Source of the DNA: Nitrospira lenta
GTDB taxonomy: Bacteria; Nitrospirota; Nitrospiria; Nitrospirales; Nitrospiraceae
Reading direction: 5' to 3'
Length of the DNA: 44,222 bases
Assembly: GCA_945905765.1 (NCBI GenBank)
Contig: CAMDPZ010000012.1
Location: 1-44,222, forward strand
Position numbers and translations under genes: made by a program. The notes beneath the pieces were generated by a model. It was not told the DNA's origin. It saw only the letters and a program-made list of their open reading frames with translations, and did not search any database. The stretch's first letter is position 1. The number at the start of each line of letters is the position of its first letter. This document shows, one piece after another, positions 15,087-41,768 of this stretch.

Positions 15087-15614
15087 ATGTTAAAAGATAA
15101 GTATCAAAAAGAAATAGCCGAAATCCTGAGCCACTATCCGGTGAAGCGCTCGGCATTGATTCCGTTGCTGTACCTGGCGCAACAGGATGAGGGCTACGTG
15201 TCGGAAGCGGCGATGAAAGAGATCGCCCAGATGCTGAGACTCACGCCGCCCCAAGTCTATGAGACCGCCACGTTCTATACGATGCTCAATCTCAAGCCCG
15301 TGGGGAAGTTCCATCTCCAGATCTGCAAGTCTCTGATGTGCGCGCTGGTCGGGTCTGACACCGTCATCGGCTGGGTCAAGGCGAAGCTCGGCATCGGGCC
15401 TGGCGAGACGACGGCTGACGGACTCTTTACCCTCAGCGCCGTCGAATGTCTCGCCGCCTGCGGCACCGCGCCGATGATGCAGGTCAACGAGGACTATTAC
15501 GAACAGCTCACGGAAGAAAAATTCGACCGCATCCTGGCCGACCTGAGAAAAGACGGAACCTGTTCCCTGAAAACCGGCCCCTTCATGTGGCCGGAAGCGC
15601 GTAGCGCCAAGTGA
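15087..15614 (+). CDS. nuoE: NADH-quinone oxidoreductase subunit E
   Basis: A 175-residue thioredoxin-like [2Fe-2S] subunit (cluster N1a) of the NADH-oxidising module. Its ligands are all present: C80 and C85 (ICKSLMC), C121 and C125 (ECLAAC). The N-terminal helical bundle (SALIPLLYLAQQDEGYVS) is typical. A GAGGAAG site precedes the ATG. The stop TGA lies inside an A-rich heptad-type repeat that fills the gap to nuoF. Confidence 0.96.
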   Translation: MLKDKYQKEIAEILSHYPVKRSALIPLLYLAQQDEGYVSEAAMKEIAQMLRLTPPQVYETATFYTMLNLKPVGKFHLQICKSLMCALVGSDTVIGWVKAKLGIGPGETTADGLFTLSAVECLAACGTAPMMQVNEDYYEQLTEEKFDRILADLRKDGTCSLKTGPFMWPEARSAK

Positions 15615-15692
15615 ACAGTTAAAATGAAAAATGAAAAAATGACCGGCGACTCCTCCACTTTTGCCTTTTTACTTTTACATTTTTACTTGCGA
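15609..15692 (+). repeat. Heptad-type inverted-repeat element, A/T-rich, between nuoE and nuoF
   Basis: The left arm is built of ~7-nt units (TAAAATG, AAAAATG). The right arm, read in reverse complement, gives AAAAATG and TAAAAGT, so the two arms are alignable in 7-nt register. The outer ends match (AAGT). The left arm includes the nuoE stop codon. It is very similar to the element at 31030-31108. Confidence 0.7.
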
Positions 15693-21481: not shown

Positions 21482-22003
21482 ATGGAACAGATATTTTTCT
21501 TTTATTTTGCCTTCGTCATCGCCGCGACTTCGATGCTGGTCGTCGCGATGCGCAACCCTGTCTACAGTGCCCTGGCGCTGCTGATCATGTTCTTCCACGT
21601 GGCGGGACTCTACGTCACGCTCCATGCGGAATTTCTCGCAGCCGTGCAGATCATCGTCTATGCCGGCGCCATCCTGGTCCTCTATCTCTTCGTCGTCATG
21701 TTGCTCAATCTGAAACAGGATGACCGCTACCACCGGCAATGGCCCATGGCTGCGGCGGTAGGCGTGACGTTGTTCGTCGAGGCCATCATCCTCACGGTCA
21801 TGAGGGGCTGGACGGCCCCCCTCGTGGCCACCGGCACAGAAACCACCGTCGGGGAAGCCGGCAATACCGAAGCGATCGGCGACGTCCTCTACTCCACCTA
21901 TCTGTTCCCCTTCGAGGTGGCGTCCTTGATTCTGCTCGTCGCGATGATCGGCGCGATCGTCCTGGCTAAAAAAGACCTTTCAGAAGTGAACAGCGAAGGG
22001 TGA
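21482..22003 (+). CDS. nuoJ: NADH-quinone oxidoreductase subunit J
   Basis: A 173-residue membrane subunit (ND6) with about five helices. Conserved features are NPVYSALALLIMFFHVAGLYV and VQIIVYAGAILVLYLFVVMLL, the helix that carries the pi-bulge in ND6. The start is the ATG at 21482, preceded in frame by a TTG. The last codons (EVNSEG, stop) are part of the left arm of a heptad-type repeat, so the C-terminus may have been reshaped by it. Confidence 0.95.
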   Translation: MEQIFFFYFAFVIAATSMLVVAMRNPVYSALALLIMFFHVAGLYVTLHAEFLAAVQIIVYAGAILVLYLFVVMLLNLKQDDRYHRQWPMAAAVGVTLFVEAIILTVMRGWTAPLVATGTETTVGEAGNTEAIGDVLYSTYLFPFEVASLILLVAMIGAIVLAKKDLSEVNSEG

Positions 22004-22078
22004 TCAGTGATGCGAGAACCATGCACCATGTCAGCTAACATGCCCGTCACCCATCACTCATCACTCATCACGAGGGCC
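21984..22078 (+). repeat. Heptad-type inverted-repeat element between nuoJ and nuoK
   Basis: The left arm carries 7-nt units GTGAACA, GTGATCA and GTGATGC. The right arm in reverse complement gives GTGATGA twice, then GTGATGG. The element overlaps the last nuoJ codons and ends 2 nt before the nuoK ATG. The left end (AAGTGAACAG) matches the left end of the nuoE-nuoF element. Confidence 0.75.
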
Positions 22079-22080
22079 GT

Positions 22081-29854: not shown

Positions 29855-30568
29855 ATGCCGCGCAACCTCCCACACATGCTATGCCTTATCCTCGCATTGC
29901 TGCTTGTCACAGCAATGCCTCCCGTCGCGCAAGCCCAGGTGATCAAGTCAGGCCAGCCTTCCTGTCCGGGAGTGGCGCTGACCTTCGACCTCTGCCCGGT
30001 GCGGAAAGGCACAGGCTACGATCAAGCCTTAATCGACTATTTAATCGAGCAGAAAATCCCCGCGACATTTTTCATGTCGGGGAAATGGATGGCGCGGCAC
30101 GAGCAACAAGTCCAAACCCTCCTCCAGGTTCCCTTCTTTGAAATCGGCACCCATGGGGAAGTCCATGCCCACCTGCCGCTCCATTCTACGGAGGAGCAAA
30201 AACAGGAAATCCTCGGCCCGGTCCGTCTCCTCAAAACCAAATACAGCCACAACGCAACCCTGTTCCGCCCTCCCTATGGAGAGTTCAACGACGACACGGT
30301 CAACGTGGCCCGTACCCTCGGCCTCCAATTTATTCTCTGGAATGTCGTGTCAGGCGATCCGGACCAGACGATTACCGCAAGCCAGATCGAGGACCGGCTG
30401 AGACGGTCCGTCCGCAAAGGCAGTGTCATCGTGATGCATGCCAACGGCAAGGGCAAACATACCCGCGAAGTCGTGCAGGACCTCCATGAACAGCTCTTGC
30501 CAGAACGCAATCTCGCGCCCATGACTATCAGCGATCTCCTCACCTGTAATGGGAAGGTGGCGCCATGA
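29855..30568 (+). CDS. Exported polysaccharide deacetylase-family protein
   Basis: A 237-residue protein with a signal peptide (about 1-27, ending VAQA) and a NodB-type domain. Motifs are TFDLCP (D45; the usual second Asp of TFDDG is Leu), H100 and H104 (GTHGEVH) as metal ligands, RPPYG (138-142) and VIVMHANG (H195). Members remove acetyl groups from cell-wall or capsule sugars. The TFDLC variant recurs in a subgroup as I recall, so loss of activity is not implied. The start was chosen at the ATG just after the promoter. The stop overlaps the next ATG (ATGA). Confidence 0.85.
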   Translation: MPRNLPHMLCLILALLLVTAMPPVAQAQVIKSGQPSCPGVALTFDLCPVRKGTGYDQALIDYLIEQKIPATFFMSGKWMARHEQQVQTLLQVPFFEIGTHGEVHAHLPLHSTEEQKQEILGPVRLLKTKYSHNATLFRPPYGEFNDDTVNVARTLGLQFILWNVVSGDPDQTITASQIEDRLRRSVRKGSVIVMHANGKGKHTREVVQDLHEQLLPERNLAPMTISDLLTCNGKVAP

Positions 30569-31044
30569 CCGATCCACTCGTTCGCCTCATGACGGAACAG
30601 GATCGAGTCGCCGTGATGGAGCTACTCGCCGGCTCGGACCCCTGGAAACGGCTGGGCTATCAAGTCAAAGACTGGGACAGCTATTTCCTCCCGCTCCCTC
30701 AGGGGCGCGATAGTTACGTCATAGAAGAAAACGGCACAGTGGCCGGCATCGCGGTTGTTCGCCGGAAGTTTCTGCTCGGCGACTATTTGGAACTGTTTGG
30801 CGTGGCGGGCTGGGCCAGAGGCAAGGGGCTCGGAGGACGGTTGCTGACCCACATCGAAACGCTGGTCTTCGCAAGGGCACAGAATCTGTTCGCCTGCGTC
30901 TCGGACTTCAACGAGCAAGGCCGGCACTTCTATGAAAAGCAGGGCTACCAGGAAATCGGTCCCATCCAAAATCTGCTGATCCAGGACAGCGCAGAAATCC
31001 TGTTACGCAAAACCAGCGGACCGGCAAGAATAAGTAAAAAGTAA
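30565..31044 (+). CDS. GNAT-family N-acetyltransferase
   Basis: A 159-residue single GNAT domain. The acetyl-CoA loop is ARGKGLGGRLLTHIE, followed by FNEQGRHFYEKQGYQEIGP, the typical C-terminal motif B. The substrate is unknown. It is coupled to the deacetylase gene by a 4-bp overlap. The last codons (KK, stop) enter the left arm of a heptad-type repeat. Confidence 0.85.
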   Translation: MTDPLVRLMTEQDRVAVMELLAGSDPWKRLGYQVKDWDSYFLPLPQGRDSYVIEENGTVAGIAVVRRKFLLGDYLELFGVAGWARGKGLGGRLLTHIETLVFARAQNLFACVSDFNEQGRHFYEKQGYQEIGPIQNLLIQDSAEILLRKTSGPARISKK

Positions 31045-31108
31045 AAATGCAAAAGTAAAAAAGTCGCGTCTTCAATTTTTGCCTTTTTAATTTTTCATTT
31101 TTCCTTGG
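31030..31108 (+). repeat. Heptad-type inverted-repeat element, A/T-rich, after the GNAT gene
   Basis: The left arm has units AAAAAGT, AAAAATG and CAAAAGT. The right arm in reverse complement gives AAAAATG, AAAAATT and AAAAAGG. The arms align in 7-nt register around a short GC centre. It is the same subtype as the element between nuoE and nuoF. Confidence 0.7.
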
Positions 31109-31117
31109 AACGAGCTC

Positions 31118-31516
31118 ATGCGAGTGATCAAGCTTCTCCATACCCGTATGAGGGTCAGCGACATGGACCAGACCGTCGCCTTCTATCGAGACGTCCTGGG
31201 GTTGGAGGTGCTGGAACGGAAGGTCTCGCCGCGAGGCTCTCATCTGGCCTTCCTCAAGGTGCCCCATAGCGAAGAGCTGATCGAACTCTGCAGCTTTCCG
31301 CCAAGCGGACCGGTGAAGGTCCAGGAGGACCTGGTTCACCTGGCCTTTCAAGTCGAGAGCCTGGACGAGACCATCGCAGCCCTCACGGAACAGGGCATTA
31401 AAATCACGGATGGACCGACTTCAACCTCATCCGGCAGCAAATTTATTTTCATCGACGCGCCGGACGGATATGAAGTCGAACTGATCGAACGGCCGCCCGG
31501 TGTGAAGATCGTATAG
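31118..31516 (+). CDS. VOC-family (glyoxalase I-like) protein
   Basis: A 132-residue protein with two beta-alpha-beta-beta-beta modules. The metal ligand positions of glyoxalase I look filled: H8 (LLHTRMRV), E in ELIELCSF, H in LVHLAF and E in YEVELIE. The segment MDQTVAFYRDVLGLEVLER is classic for the fold. It may be a lactoylglutathione lyase or methylmalonyl-CoA epimerase-type enzyme; the sequence alone does not decide. Confidence 0.82.
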   Translation: MRVIKLLHTRMRVSDMDQTVAFYRDVLGLEVLERKVSPRGSHLAFLKVPHSEELIELCSFPPSGPVKVQEDLVHLAFQVESLDETIAALTEQGIKITDGPTSTSSGSKFIFIDAPDGYEVELIERPPGVKIV

Positions 31517-31525
31517 CCCCAAGAA

Positions 31526-31654
31526 CCCGTCAATCGTCATTCGTCATACGTGGGGAAGCCGGCGGAAGTGCGCTCCCCCTGTTGACGACACCCTATTCTC
31601 CCGAGTACCTTCACTCCCGTTTGACGTATGACCAATGACGGTTGACGATTTCCC
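31526..31654 (+). repeat. Heptad-type inverted-repeat element before the dapF-like gene
   Basis: The left arm has units CGTCAAT, CGTCATT and CGTCATA. The right arm in reverse complement gives CGTCAAC, CGTCATT and GGTCATA. About 70 nt lie between. It is the same CGTCA subtype as the elements at 32542-32636 and 41670-41768. Confidence 0.75.
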
Positions 31655-31670
31655 TTCAAAGGAGCCGGAC

Positions 31671-32543
31671 ATGAAGAACGGATTTTTTCGCGGGCATGGG
31701 CTGGGCAACGACTACATTGTCATGGACCCCAAGGAACTGTCGTTTTTGCTGAGCCCCTCGAGGATCAAAGCTATCTGCGATCGCAATTGGGGATTGGGCA
31801 GCGATGGCATCCTGGCGCTGGTGCCGACGAAAAAAGCGGATTTCGGTCTGAGGATCTATAATCCTGACGGCAGCGAAGCAGAAAAGTCCGGCAATGGCCT
31901 GCGCATCTTCGCCCGCTATCTCCACGCCACCGGCAAAACGAAGAAGAAACATTTTACCGTCGAGACCAAAGGCGGACTGGTGACGATCGAGCTCCATCTG
32001 GACCGGCATGGGGATGCCAGTTCCGTCACAGTCGAAATGGGCAAGGCGTCATTCCAGCCTGCGTCGCTCCCCTGCAGCCTCACGGTGAACGAACTGATTA
32101 CACAGCCCATCGAGGCGGCAGGTCAGCCTCTTACCTTCACCGGAGTCAGCGTCGGCAATCCCCATTGCGTCGTCTTCAAACCGGCAGGCCAGTCCTGGTC
32201 GCGAGAGGACCTCCTCAAGCTGGGACCTGCGCTGGAAAACCATGTCCTCTTCCCGAAACGCACGAACGTGCAGCTCGCCGTGCCGACCGGCCCGAAGGAA
32301 CTCTTCATCCTGATCTGGGAGCGCGGGGCCGGTGAAACCCAGGCCTCCGGGTCCTCCTCCTGCGCCGCAGCGAGCGCGGCCGTAAAACTCGGACTGGTCA
32401 AGAGCCCCGTTACGGTGAAAATGCCGGGAGGCCAGCTCAACATCCAGGTCGCCGAAGACTTCAGCCTCACGATGAAGGGGCCGGTCGCGGAAGTCGCGCG
32501 CGGAAGCCTGAGCCCCTCGTTCGTCAGATCGCTCAAGCCATAA
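31671..32543 (+). CDS. DapF-fold protein lacking both catalytic cysteines
   Basis: A 290-residue homologue of diaminopimelate epimerase. The fold and substrate loops are retained (GLGNDYIVMD, RNWGLGSDGILAL, NPDGSEAEKSGNGLR, VGNPHCVVF, ERGAGETQASG). In true DapF, two Cys act as acid and base (about C73 and C217, in CGNG and ACGTG). Here both are Ser (S73, S226). It may be a different enzyme of the proline-racemase/DapF superfamily, or inactive. The start is the ATG at 31671 with AAGGAG upstream; an in-frame ATG at 31635 lies inside the repeat. The window shows no other lysine-pathway gene. Confidence 0.85.
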   Translation: MKNGFFRGHGLGNDYIVMDPKELSFLLSPSRIKAICDRNWGLGSDGILALVPTKKADFGLRIYNPDGSEAEKSGNGLRIFARYLHATGKTKKKHFTVETKGGLVTIELHLDRHGDASSVTVEMGKASFQPASLPCSLTVNELITQPIEAAGQPLTFTGVSVGNPHCVVFKPAGQSWSREDLLKLGPALENHVLFPKRTNVQLAVPTGPKELFILIWERGAGETQASGSSSCAAASAAVKLGLVKSPVTVKMPGGQLNIQVAEDFSLTMKGPVAEVARGSLSPSFVRSLKP

Positions 32544-32636
32544 CGTCACACGTCATTCGTCAATCGAGAAGAAAGATACAGGGGTTTCCTGTTATTCTTA
32601 CGGGTGACGGATGACCTATGACGATTGACGTTCTCC
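32542..32636 (+). repeat. Heptad-type inverted-repeat element overlapping the uvrC start
   Basis: The left arm has units CGTCACA, CGTCATT and CGTCAAT. The right arm in reverse complement gives CGTCAAT, CGTCATA and GGTCATC, and shares the outer end AACGTCA. It begins at the dapF-like stop codon and ends inside the first uvrC codons. Confidence 0.75.
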
Positions 32637-34441
32637 AATCCAAACTCGACCACCTGCCGGACCAGCCTGGCGTCTATCTCTTCAAGGACGGACAGGGCGA
32701 AGTCCTCTATGTCGGGAAGGCCTCGGTCCTATCCAACCGGGTGAGGTCCTATTTTCAAAAAGGGACCGATCATTCCCCGAAAAACATCGTCCTGGTCGGC
32801 AAAATCGCGGATCTCGACACCATCGTCACCCGCTCGGAGCTCGAAGCCCTCATCCTCGAAAATAACCTGATCAAGCGGCACAGGCCCCGCTTCAACATCC
32901 TCTTGCGGGACGACAAACAGTATCCCTACCTGCGTCTGCCGATCAAAGAAGACTTCCCGCGCCTCACCGTCGTCCGCCGCGTGCAAAAAGACGGCGCCCT
33001 CTACTATGGCCCCTACCCGCCGGCCGGCGCCTTGCGGGAGACATTGAAGGTCATCAAGAAAACCTTCCCCCTGGCCACCTGCACCATCACGATCGACGGC
33101 AAGGCGGACCGGGCCTGCATCGAATTCGAAATCAAACGGTGCATGGCGCCCTGCACCGGCAACCAATCGAAAGAGGACTACCACCGCATCGTCGCGCAGG
33201 TCCGCCAATTTCTCGAAGGGCGCGATCATGAATTGCTGGACAACTTGCGCGCCCAGATGGAGCAAGCGGCGGAACGGGAGGAATTCGAGGAAGCGGCGCG
33301 CCTGCGCGACCGGCTCTTCAACATCGAACGCACCCTCGAAAAACAGCGCATCACCCAAACGACGACGACCGACCAGGACGTGATCGGCCTGGCACGGCAA
33401 GGCACGGCGGTCGATCTCCAGATTCTCTTCGTGCGCGGCGGCCTCCTGATCGGGCGCAAGGATTACTTCTGGCCCCAATCAGCCGACACCAGCGACGAGG
33501 AGCTGGTGCGATCCGCCATCGAGCAGTTCTATAGCAAGGACGGGCAGCCGCCCAAGGAACTGCTCATCCCCACCGATCTGGACGATGCCAAGGTGATTGA
33601 AGACTGGCTCTCGGGCAAGAGGGGAAACACCGTCCGCGTAGTGACACCGGAGCGGGGCGTGAAACACCAATTGGTTCTCCTCGCGGAGGAAAATGCCGCA
33701 GCCTCCGTCGCCAATCACCTGCGAGACGAAGAAGTCGGCAGGCAGGCAGTCGAAGAGCTGAAGTGGCTCATCAGGCTGGACGTTGTGCCCACACGCATCG
33801 AGGGGTTCGACATTTCGAATACCATGGGCAACCAGTCCGTCGCCTCCATGGTGGTCTGGGAAGATGGCCAGATGAAGAAAGCCGACTACCGACGGTTCAC
33901 CATCAAAACCGTCACTGGCGCCAACGACTTTGCCAGCATGCAGGAAGTCGTCATGCGCCGTTATGGAGCAAGCGAGGATCTCGCGCGTCCGGACCTCATC
34001 CTCATCGACGGAGGATTAGGCCAGCTCGCCGCAGCCATGGAGGGGCTGAAACAGGTCGGGCAGCAAGACCTGCCCATGATCGGATTGGCCAAGGCGCGGG
34101 GCGAAAAGGAGGAGCGGATTTTTCTGCCGGGACGGAAAAACCCCATCGTGCTGCGCGCGAACTCCCCTGCCACCCATCTCGTGCAGCGCATTCGCGACGA
34201 GGCCCATCGATTTGCGATCACCTTCCATCGCAAGCTGCGAAGCAAAGCGCTCATGGCCTCGCAACTGGATCAGATAAACGGCATCGGCGAGAGCACCAGG
34301 ACCCGCCTCCTCAAAGAATATGGCAGCCTGGCGAATATCGCAGCCGCCACGGATGCGCAACTATCGGCATCCGGCCTCGATGCCGACACGGTCGCAGCCA
34401 TGAGAAAAGTTCTCGCGACTACGACTCCGTCGCGCGATTGA
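32618..34441 (+). CDS. uvrC: UvrABC excinuclease subunit C
   Basis: A 607-residue nucleotide excision repair nuclease. Parts in order: GIY-YIG domain (about 15-95; PGVYLFKDGQGEVLYVGKA), a Cys-containing region (about 145-185), the UVR helix pair that binds UvrB (AEREEFEEAARLRDRL, about 215-230), an RNase H-like 5'-nuclease domain (about 385-540; IEGFDISNTMGNQSVASMVV, LILIDGGLGQL) and tandem helix-hairpin-helix motifs at the end (INGIGESTRTRLL). The ATG and the next few codons come from the repeat arm, but the N-terminal length fits the family. Confidence 0.96.
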   Translation: MTIDVLQSKLDHLPDQPGVYLFKDGQGEVLYVGKASVLSNRVRSYFQKGTDHSPKNIVLVGKIADLDTIVTRSELEALILENNLIKRHRPRFNILLRDDKQYPYLRLPIKEDFPRLTVVRRVQKDGALYYGPYPPAGALRETLKVIKKTFPLATCTITIDGKADRACIEFEIKRCMAPCTGNQSKEDYHRIVAQVRQFLEGRDHELLDNLRAQMEQAAEREEFEEAARLRDRLFNIERTLEKQRITQTTTTDQDVIGLARQGTAVDLQILFVRGGLLIGRKDYFWPQSADTSDEELVRSAIEQFYSKDGQPPKELLIPTDLDDAKVIEDWLSGKRGNTVRVVTPERGVKHQLVLLAEENAAASVANHLRDEEVGRQAVEELKWLIRLDVVPTRIEGFDISNTMGNQSVASMVVWEDGQMKKADYRRFTIKTVTGANDFASMQEVVMRRYGASEDLARPDLILIDGGLGQLAAAMEGLKQVGQQDLPMIGLAKARGEKEERIFLPGRKNPIVLRANSPATHLVQRIRDEAHRFAITFHRKLRSKALMASQLDQINGIGESTRTRLLKEYGSLANIAAATDAQLSASGLDADTVAAMRKVLATTTPSRD

Positions 34442-41669: not shown

Positions 41670-41768
41670 ATCGTCAATGGTCACTCGTCAACCGTCGCGC
41701 GTGTGCGCGCAGGCACAACCGCACATCCGGCTTCTGCCCCACGATTGACGAATGACGCATGACGACTT
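41670..41768 (+). repeat. Heptad-type inverted-repeat element between convergent genes
   Basis: The left arm has units CGTCAAT, GGTCACT and CGTCAAC. The right arm in reverse complement gives CGTCATG, CGTCATT and CGTCAAT. The loop contains a GTGCGCGC-rich segment. It is the CGTCA subtype again, here at a point where two transcripts meet, so it could serve as a two-way terminator. Confidence 0.75.

Follow-up and report, generated by a model that had tools for sequence, protein, structure and literature searches.

What are the hairpins of degenerate heptamers that recur between genes along this stretch of Nitrospira lenta DNA, and how did they come to sit there? The window, meaning the whole analysed stretch of 44,222 nucleotides, is contig 12 of a 2.33-Mb, 115-contig genome whose assembly is about 90% complete. 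An earlier note, made from the letters alone, described intergenic inverted repeats whose arms are runs of related heptamers, and such inverted arrays of degenerate 7-nt units are real in all six of the gaps that it pointed out. The six elements are listed here with the z scores of their RNA folding against shuffles:

15609..15690, + strand: ORF-less element in the gap between a nuoE-like and a nuoF-like gene; AT-rich units AAAATGA/AAAAGTA; arms 15617-15638 and 15666-15687; z -1.9
21985..22071, + strand: ORF-less element in the gap between a nuoJ-like and a nuoK-like gene; GTGATGA units; arms 21995-22017 and 22047-22069; z -0.7
31028..31106, + strand: ORF-less element between an acetyltransferase gene and a glyoxalase-like gene; AT-rich units; arms 31032-31062 and 31076-31106; z -1.2
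31523..31652, + strand: ORF-less element in the gap from the glyoxalase-like gene to dapF; CGTCANN on the left at 31523-31551, TGACGNN on the right at 31624-31652; z -5.6
32544..32632, + strand: ORF-less element in the dapF-uvrC gap; arms CGTCANN (left) and TGACGNN (right); z -3.5
41671..41765, + strand: ORF-less element 3' of a UPF0114 gene; CGTCANN/TGACGNN; arms 41671-41700 and 41736-41765; z -1.9

Scans of the genome show that these arrays exceed chance. Lag-7 runs of at least 19/28 occur in 8 of 198 intergenic gaps of up to 500 nt (428 kb), with a shuffled mean of 0.2 and counts of 0-3 at other lags, and six of the eight are window gaps. TGA at positions i, i+7 and i+14 is found 20 times between genes and once within them, and TCA at the same spacing 19 times and twice; spacings of 5, 6, 8, 9 and 10 yield 0-4 intergenic occurrences. 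Inverted pairing combined with a period of 7 or 8 appears in 21 of 306 gaps (722 kb) and in 0 of 918 shuffled gaps, so shuffled intergenic sequence does not reproduce the two together. With the control periods 5, 6, 10 and 11, five gaps in the same 722 kb show inverted pairing. Four of the six window gaps pass this strict test of pairing and period, and 22004-22080 and 32544-32617 miss it. Three consecutive TGACGNN units, at two mismatches or fewer, have 91 matches genome-wide against none for a backward control. The genome-wide lag-7 autocorrelation proposed in the note stands only locally: few gaps carry arrays, and the total over the whole of the intergenic DNA accordingly shows no rise (z 1.4). 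A first scan at the stricter threshold of 26/35 found nothing at any lag.

The window elements thus combine tandem 7-nt units between genes, as in heptameric repeats, with terminal inverted repeats that form a stem. Folding as RNA is clear for 31518-31660 and 32538-32640, and the other four places reach z scores of only -0.7 to -1.9, so the folding expected by the earlier note is strong in two of six. These two strong folds are what would favour intrinsic terminators or mRNA-processing stems. That explanation is very improbable: four of the six stems are weak, the unit type is swapped freely between species, and a scan confined to 30500-33000 finds three sites with a GC-rich stem and a T run against a shuffled mean of 3.6. 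Rfam at gathering thresholds gives no match in the window. The elements also overlap or supply start and stop codons, as the note had it; the likely uvrC start, ATG at 32618, lies within the right arm of the dapF-uvrC element (ATGACGATTGACG), and the array therefore seems to supply the first UvrC residues.

A protein partner emerges outside the window, which is why the note missed it. Four genes of this genome match PF05635, the S23 or 23S-rRNA intervening-sequence protein. All four lie on other contigs, and no PF05635 reading frame is present between the window arms. By eye, each of the four has short-period inverted arrays on both sides, with units that all differ: GTGATGA, an octad with GTC, CCTTCAG and an AT-rich AAAATGC. 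Under an arm-score threshold of 14, L137 (15.5) and L140 (19.0) pass, L139 (11.0) fails, and L138 was dropped for its short flank.

The same arrangement extends across Nitrospirota. From 73 S23 loci, three with less than 120 nt on one side were removed, L138 among them, leaving 70. The upstream arm pairs with the reverse complement of the downstream arm in 55 of these 70 loci, which include orthologues and so are not independent. None of 147 control genes, all taken from this genome, shows such pairing, and 17 of 800 swapped pairs do. Lag-7 runs accompany 40/70 S23 loci and 9/147 controls. Beyond the period of 7 that the note had seen, periods of 8 and 9 also occur around S23 genes; lag 8 is raised at 13/70 loci (5/147 controls), and lag 9 at 9/70 (4/147). 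A clear period marks 105 of 140 arms (period 7, n=69; 8, n=19; 9, n=12; 6, n=5), and 27 of 294 control arms pass the period score. The number of units varies, with a median array length of 4.3 units and a mode of 4.

Plasmids and viral contigs show the association as well. Paired arms flank 15 of 16 plasmid S23 loci, a set without a plasmid control, with units such as GGGAACA, AGGGTGT, GAGTCAG and AGCTAAA. This sample covers 16 of 30 records and includes some close kin (L213, L225); further sets of 45 and 26 records lie outside it. Since 14 of the 16 loci are cyanobacterial, such heptads flank cyanobacterial S23 genes, and cyanobacterial heptanucleotide repeats, the nearest analogy named in the earlier note, prove to be the right one. 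Among viral contigs, 14 of 17 loci are positive against 4 of 387 swaps, after removal of five near-duplicates from 22 (L294/L295 and L305/L306 were kept although they are close kin). Loci under the pairing threshold number 15/70 in Nitrospirota, 1/16 on plasmids and 3/17 on viral contigs. Overall, the association spans four phyla, two of them through one locus each. In Azospirillum, the PF05635 gene of L214 has heptad arms and lies inside large-subunit rRNA (Rfam RF02541, 1119 bits). This locus belongs to Azospirillum lipoferum plasmid AZO_p2, where PLSDB has no gene annotated. At loci L215, L216 and L222, all on cyanobacterial plasmids, arrayed S23 genes have CRISPR genes on either side (cas10 with a Cmr3-family gene; cas6 with cas4).

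The units themselves consist of a fixed core and free spacer bases. Logos built from units flanked by two perfect cores show that the TGACG family holds each core position in 15-20 of 21 units and that its next two bases are mixed; TCAGC units in S23 arms keep each core position in 16/16, again with two mixed bases following. This fixed-plus-free design is clear in these two families. Others offer too few units, and in GTGAT units four positions are firm (31-33 of 33) and the remaining three looser. Across 12 own-genome TGACG hairpins, the free bases match no better between the arms of one hairpin (0.465) than between swapped arms (0.529). Selection for pairing would call for agreement at these bases, whereas an array that serves for binding has no such need; this suggests reading of the units by a protein. 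For the hairpin layout claimed in the note, the inverted arrays hold, and precise pairing as a conserved property is weakened.

Stop codons are a poorer guide to what the units do. The note argued that repeated TGA at a spacing of 7 places stops in all frames, and among 79 S23 arrays of period 7 or 8 this applies to 16-36%: 36% (sense) and 29% (antisense) of the arrays upstream, 16% (sense) and 32% (antisense) of those downstream. When they are compared with column-permuted units, the upstream antisense excess is clear (29% against 12%, 0/300; 11/300 when collapsed to protein families), the upstream sense excess is weak (19/300; 53/300 collapsed), and downstream arrays show no clear three-frame excess. 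With one of four tests clear, stop codons make a weak candidate for the purpose of the units, and the general point is not borne out.

Array type and protein belong together. The share of S23 locus pairs with common arms is 10/2255 below 55% protein identity, 16/80 at 55-70%, 20/25 at 70-85% and 30/49 above 85%, or 50/74 for all pairs more than 70% identical. Since the upstream arm of one locus was scored against the reversed downstream arm of the other, homology of the flanking genes cannot produce this sharing. The array unit type follows the S23 protein subfamily.

This relationship allows the window hairpins to be matched with S23 elements. Among the 70 S23 loci, the best match over both arms is the own-genome L140 for the hairpins at 15609 and 31030, the own-genome L137 for that at 21984, and L207, from a genome of the same genus, for those at 31526, 32544 and 41670. 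Polarity agrees with the matching S23 element in 6/6. Shuffled arms reach the observed score in 0/40 trials for five elements and in 1/40 for 15609. More broadly, 20 of 23 ORF-less gaps, made up of the 21 strict-test gaps and the window's other two, exceed the highest of 184 shuffled scores (27.5), and for 11 of the 23 the best match is an own-genome S23. The note was right to see one family with a common layout and differing unit subtypes. Taken with the arrays around S23 genes, these matches make it probable that the window hairpins belong, as MITE-like forms without an ORF, to a large class of S23 elements found between genes. No S23 stub is seen within the window elements, whose status as S23 derivatives comes from the arm match.

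Some genome-level results tell against this reading. For the CGTCA subtype, no cognate S23 gene is found in the own assembly, which is 90% complete. The number of S23 genes correlates with the number of TGACG arrays over 61 genomes (rho 0.75), a value confounded by kinship; within the family it is 0.42 (p 0.009) and within the genus 0.28 (p 0.13), which is not significant. Three genomes with a cognate CGTCA-type S23 carry 20, 25 and 38 arrays; the 34 others have a median of 6 (p 0.0055). This comparison was picked post hoc. Genome G033, from another genus of the same family, has 86 TGACG array-pattern matches at one mismatch or fewer, the highest count among the 61 genomes. The L140 S23 gene (G000:C46:15216-15527; AT-rich arms) contains an in-frame TGA, and so looks decayed, though its ORF-less relatives persist.

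These results bear on a different origin, in which the arrays are neutral tandem repeats produced by polymerase slippage, with the second arm added by fold-back synthesis. Unit number does vary, and PMC4679880 reports heptamers as over-represented in many bacteria and mentions slippage as a proposed source. Slippage should copy spacers too, yet the TGACG and TCAGC families keep the core and leave two spacer bases free, and the spacers do not match between arms. Nor does it predict S23 genes between the arms or the matching of motif to protein. Already strained by the absence of paired arrays around every one of the own-genome control genes, this explanation is highly unlikely.

At orthologous gaps the elements have repeatedly been gained, lost and exchanged. 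For the dapF-uvrC junction, 80 DapF relatives were kept, almost all from records named Nitrospira or Nitrospirae/Nitrospirota; in 14 of the 80 loci no UvrC motif could be located, and the 200 nt that follow dapF were analysed instead. Unit types in this gap differ by species and include CGTCANN/TGACGNN, TCAGCNN/GCTGANN, GGTCANN/TGACCNN and ATGGNNN/CCATNNN. The labels comprise 22 TGACG, 17 GCTGA, 10 TGACC with S23, 6 CCAT with S23, 1 TGACC without it, 23 none or degenerate, and 1 bare gap (L118, although a loose rule gave it CCAT). A gene of about 130 codons that matches the S23 profile is present in 16/80 loci, in L075 about 1.4 kb past its dapF. The profile was built from 12 dapF-gap ORFs and two own-genome PF05635 genes, and all three dapF-gap ORFs scanned against Pfam match PF05635. 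On a dapF tree drawn without L134, this gap has undergone at least 23 changes of unit type, counted with none or degenerate rows excluded, and 13 changes of S23 presence.

Some loci keep remnants of S23. In N. moscoviensis (L089), the first S23 codons remain between the arms of the dapF-uvrC gap, and reading by eye finds S23 stubs between the arms of L267 and L281 as well; all three have the form left by internal deletion of a larger element with matching ends. In the L106 dapF-uvrC gap there is an extra insertion with a palindrome (CTCTCCCC...GGGTGAGAGGAG). By eye, the GCTGA-type loops after dapF in L058, L060 and L063 contain a sigma-70-like promoter, TTGCCC-N17-TAGAAT, directed towards uvrC.

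Other junctions behave alike. Relatives carry other unit types or none in the glyoxalase-dapF gap, where automatic labels over 77 loci gave 5 CGTCA, 5 GGTCA, 62 unlabelled and 5 without a glyoxalase end, and types were named by eye from 18 loci. Among the three closest relatives, read by eye across the glyoxalase-dapF and dapF-uvrC gaps, the window has CGTCA/CGTCA, L058 has CGTCA/GCTGA and L057 has a CGTGAAG type and CGTCA. At the junction of a glycosyltransferase gene with the gene that follows it, an S23 element flanked by GTGATGA arms is present in G000 and G003, and G001, G015 and G036 have neither S23 nor array, with only five bases from stop to start in G036. G001 and G015 are not clean empty sites, since the C-terminus of the glycosyltransferase differs there too. 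In other genomes this junction holds S23 of different types, arrays without an ORF, or arms with an S23 stub between them. Additionally, the CGTCA-type S23 genes of G001 and G019 are 79% identical and adjoin different genes.

How such changes arise is less certain. ORF-less cassettes of the same type in the dapF-uvrC gap share loops across species, with a gap identity of 0.59-0.61 within a type against 0.41 between types. Across 51 loci, the last 90 nt of dapF are also more alike in same-type pairs, in 5/5 identity bins and by 0.01-0.11. On the uvrC side of these loci, identity is not consistently higher in same-type pairs, being up to 0.02 higher in three of five bins and lower in two. Shared loops and more similar dapF ends mean that exchange of old alleles by recombination fits as well as new insertion. 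At the junctions read by eye no target-site duplication could be made out, since the arrays themselves supply TGA and ATG and their ends are not sharp. Neither live movement nor near-identical recent copies were seen. These data support gain, loss and internal deletion, and they do not prove transposition.

Turnover also weighs against a post-transcriptional network in which S23 would be an RNA-binding regulator and the ORF-less hairpins its operators at the starts and ends of genes. Such a network would account for arrays that overlap stop and start codons and for the shared polarity of hairpins and matching S23 elements in the window. It would also suit the orientation of S23 genes, which are co-directional with both neighbours in 30 of 34 loci (those of the 73 in which both neighbours could be placed) against 51 of 75 control genes. 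Operators of this kind sit poorly with a type and presence that change at orthologous gaps of close relatives, with S23 stubs between arms, and with window targets, from nuo genes to dapF and uvrC, that have no apparent common theme. A regulatory role of this sort is unlikely, and derivation from S23 elements is the preferred reading.

If the hairpins are mobile-element derivatives, the usual enzymes of mobility do not explain them. A reverse transcriptase or a Y1 transposase as mobiliser was considered and rejected, since the own genome has neither and several genomes rich in S23 lack them too. RVT_1 has no match in the own genome, G001, G005 or G035 and is present in 18 of 61 genomes; Y1_Tnp has none in the own genome (about 90% complete), G001 or G035 and is present in 33 of 61. 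The three genomes without Y1_Tnp nevertheless hold 4 (own), 5 (G001) and 8 (G035) S23 matches. In REPIN/RAYT systems and among MITEs, as here, small inverted-repeat elements between genes have a full-length counterpart that encodes a protein. The S23 elements share with REP/REPIN elements the intergenic inverted repeats, the many copies and the ORF-less derivatives. Spread by a Y1 (RAYT) transposase is scarcely credible all the same, given the genomes that lack Y1_Tnp despite their S23 genes. Moreover, S23 occupies the place of the RAYT without being a recognised transposase, and the element ends are degenerate 7-nt arrays, unlike the fixed terminal repeats of REPINs and MITEs.

Diversity-generating retroelements offer a second comparison, through the accessory protein Avd. 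The structure predicted for an own-genome S23 (mean pLDDT 92.5) matches the S23 structure 2GSC with a TM score of 0.90 and, more weakly, Avd (4DWL; TM 0.75-0.76, Foldseek E 0.2-0.8). PMC10053308 suggests homology of Avd and PF05635. Unlike Avd retroelements, the S23 elements occur in genomes without any RVT_1 match, as the counts above show.

The closest known relatives are the intervening sequences (IVS) of 23S rRNA that carry an S23p ORF. Both place an S23/IVP gene between stem-forming inverted repeats, and at L214 such a gene, with heptad arms, lies within large-subunit rRNA. In Coxiella, according to the available portion of PMC4990558, the IVS has three tandem heptamers (GACAGAT) directly upstream of S23p and a truncated ORF. 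Unlike the rRNA IVS, the elements described here lie between protein genes, away from the insertion sites at rRNA helices 9, 25 and 45, and those of the window have no ORF. The window hairpins look like ORF-less S23/IVS derivatives, yet they lack two features that define an IVS, the ORF inside and the rRNA site.

Heptamers reported from other bacteria fit the same pattern. Xanthomonas GGGAATC and Nostoc GGGGAYT repeats, as set out in the consulted sections of PMC4692102, most commonly have four units, conserve positions 1-4 and 6, form 70 and 75 convergent pairs, are mostly intergenic, and place long repeats at different genes in two species. This is the pattern of the Nitrospira arrays. 2GSC, the S23 homologue of known structure, is a Xanthomonas campestris protein. 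PMC4692102 is a study of quadruplex formation, and neither S23 nor helix bundle occurs in its text. The TAACTGA repeats of Beggiatoaceae are also intergenic heptamers near start codons with a patchy distribution (PMC4679880). They differ in being direct repeats with one inverted case, and S23 and helix bundle are absent from the portion of that text consulted. Within open-licence full text, no link between S23 genes and intergenic heptamer arrays was found; subscription and preprint literature lies outside this scope, and the link may exist in print.

A working model can be drawn from these comparisons. The full element would consist of a left array of about four degenerate 7-nt units (8 or 9 nt in some families), a gene for the four-helix-bundle protein S23/IVP (PF05635), and the same array inverted. 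Such elements may enter stop/start junctions within transcription units, or persist only there, which would lay their outer units over stop and start codons, for example the uvrC start at 32618. The Xanthomonas S23 homologue is a ring of five four-helix bundles, as the accessible part of PMC4990558 describes. By analogy, an S23 ring of five would read the fixed bases of each unit and ignore the spacer bases. TRAP, which reads spaced triplets, provides a model for reading by a ring. Recognition with one unit per ring position is a tentative proposal. Holding both arrays together, S23 would mark its own nucleic acid and, in trans, the ORF-less copies. To our knowledge, the S23 family has no recognised nuclease, so a host activity would have to supply cutting and joining.

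The broadest form of this idea is speculative, with odds that we place below even. S23 may provide recognition for a widespread kind of mobile element that has no transposase or reverse transcriptase of its own. It would act as a five-fold ring, each subunit reading one unit made of a short fixed core and a free spacer, and host enzymes would insert the elements at stop/start junctions or RNA loops. The 23S IVS, the cyanobacterial and Xanthomonas heptamers and the Nitrospira hairpins could then be forms of one class.

PMC4692102 describes the heptamer repeats of bacteria as little studied, and for S23, the protein of rRNA intervening sequences, PMC4990558 states that no function is known. If the two are parts of one element, the repeats would be its ends and the S23 protein their reader, and each would explain the other. 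Intergenic heptad arrays would then mark past insertions, and odd start and stop codons at operon junctions would be explained. A link to S23 elements would also unite several bacterial repeats that have so far gone unexplained.
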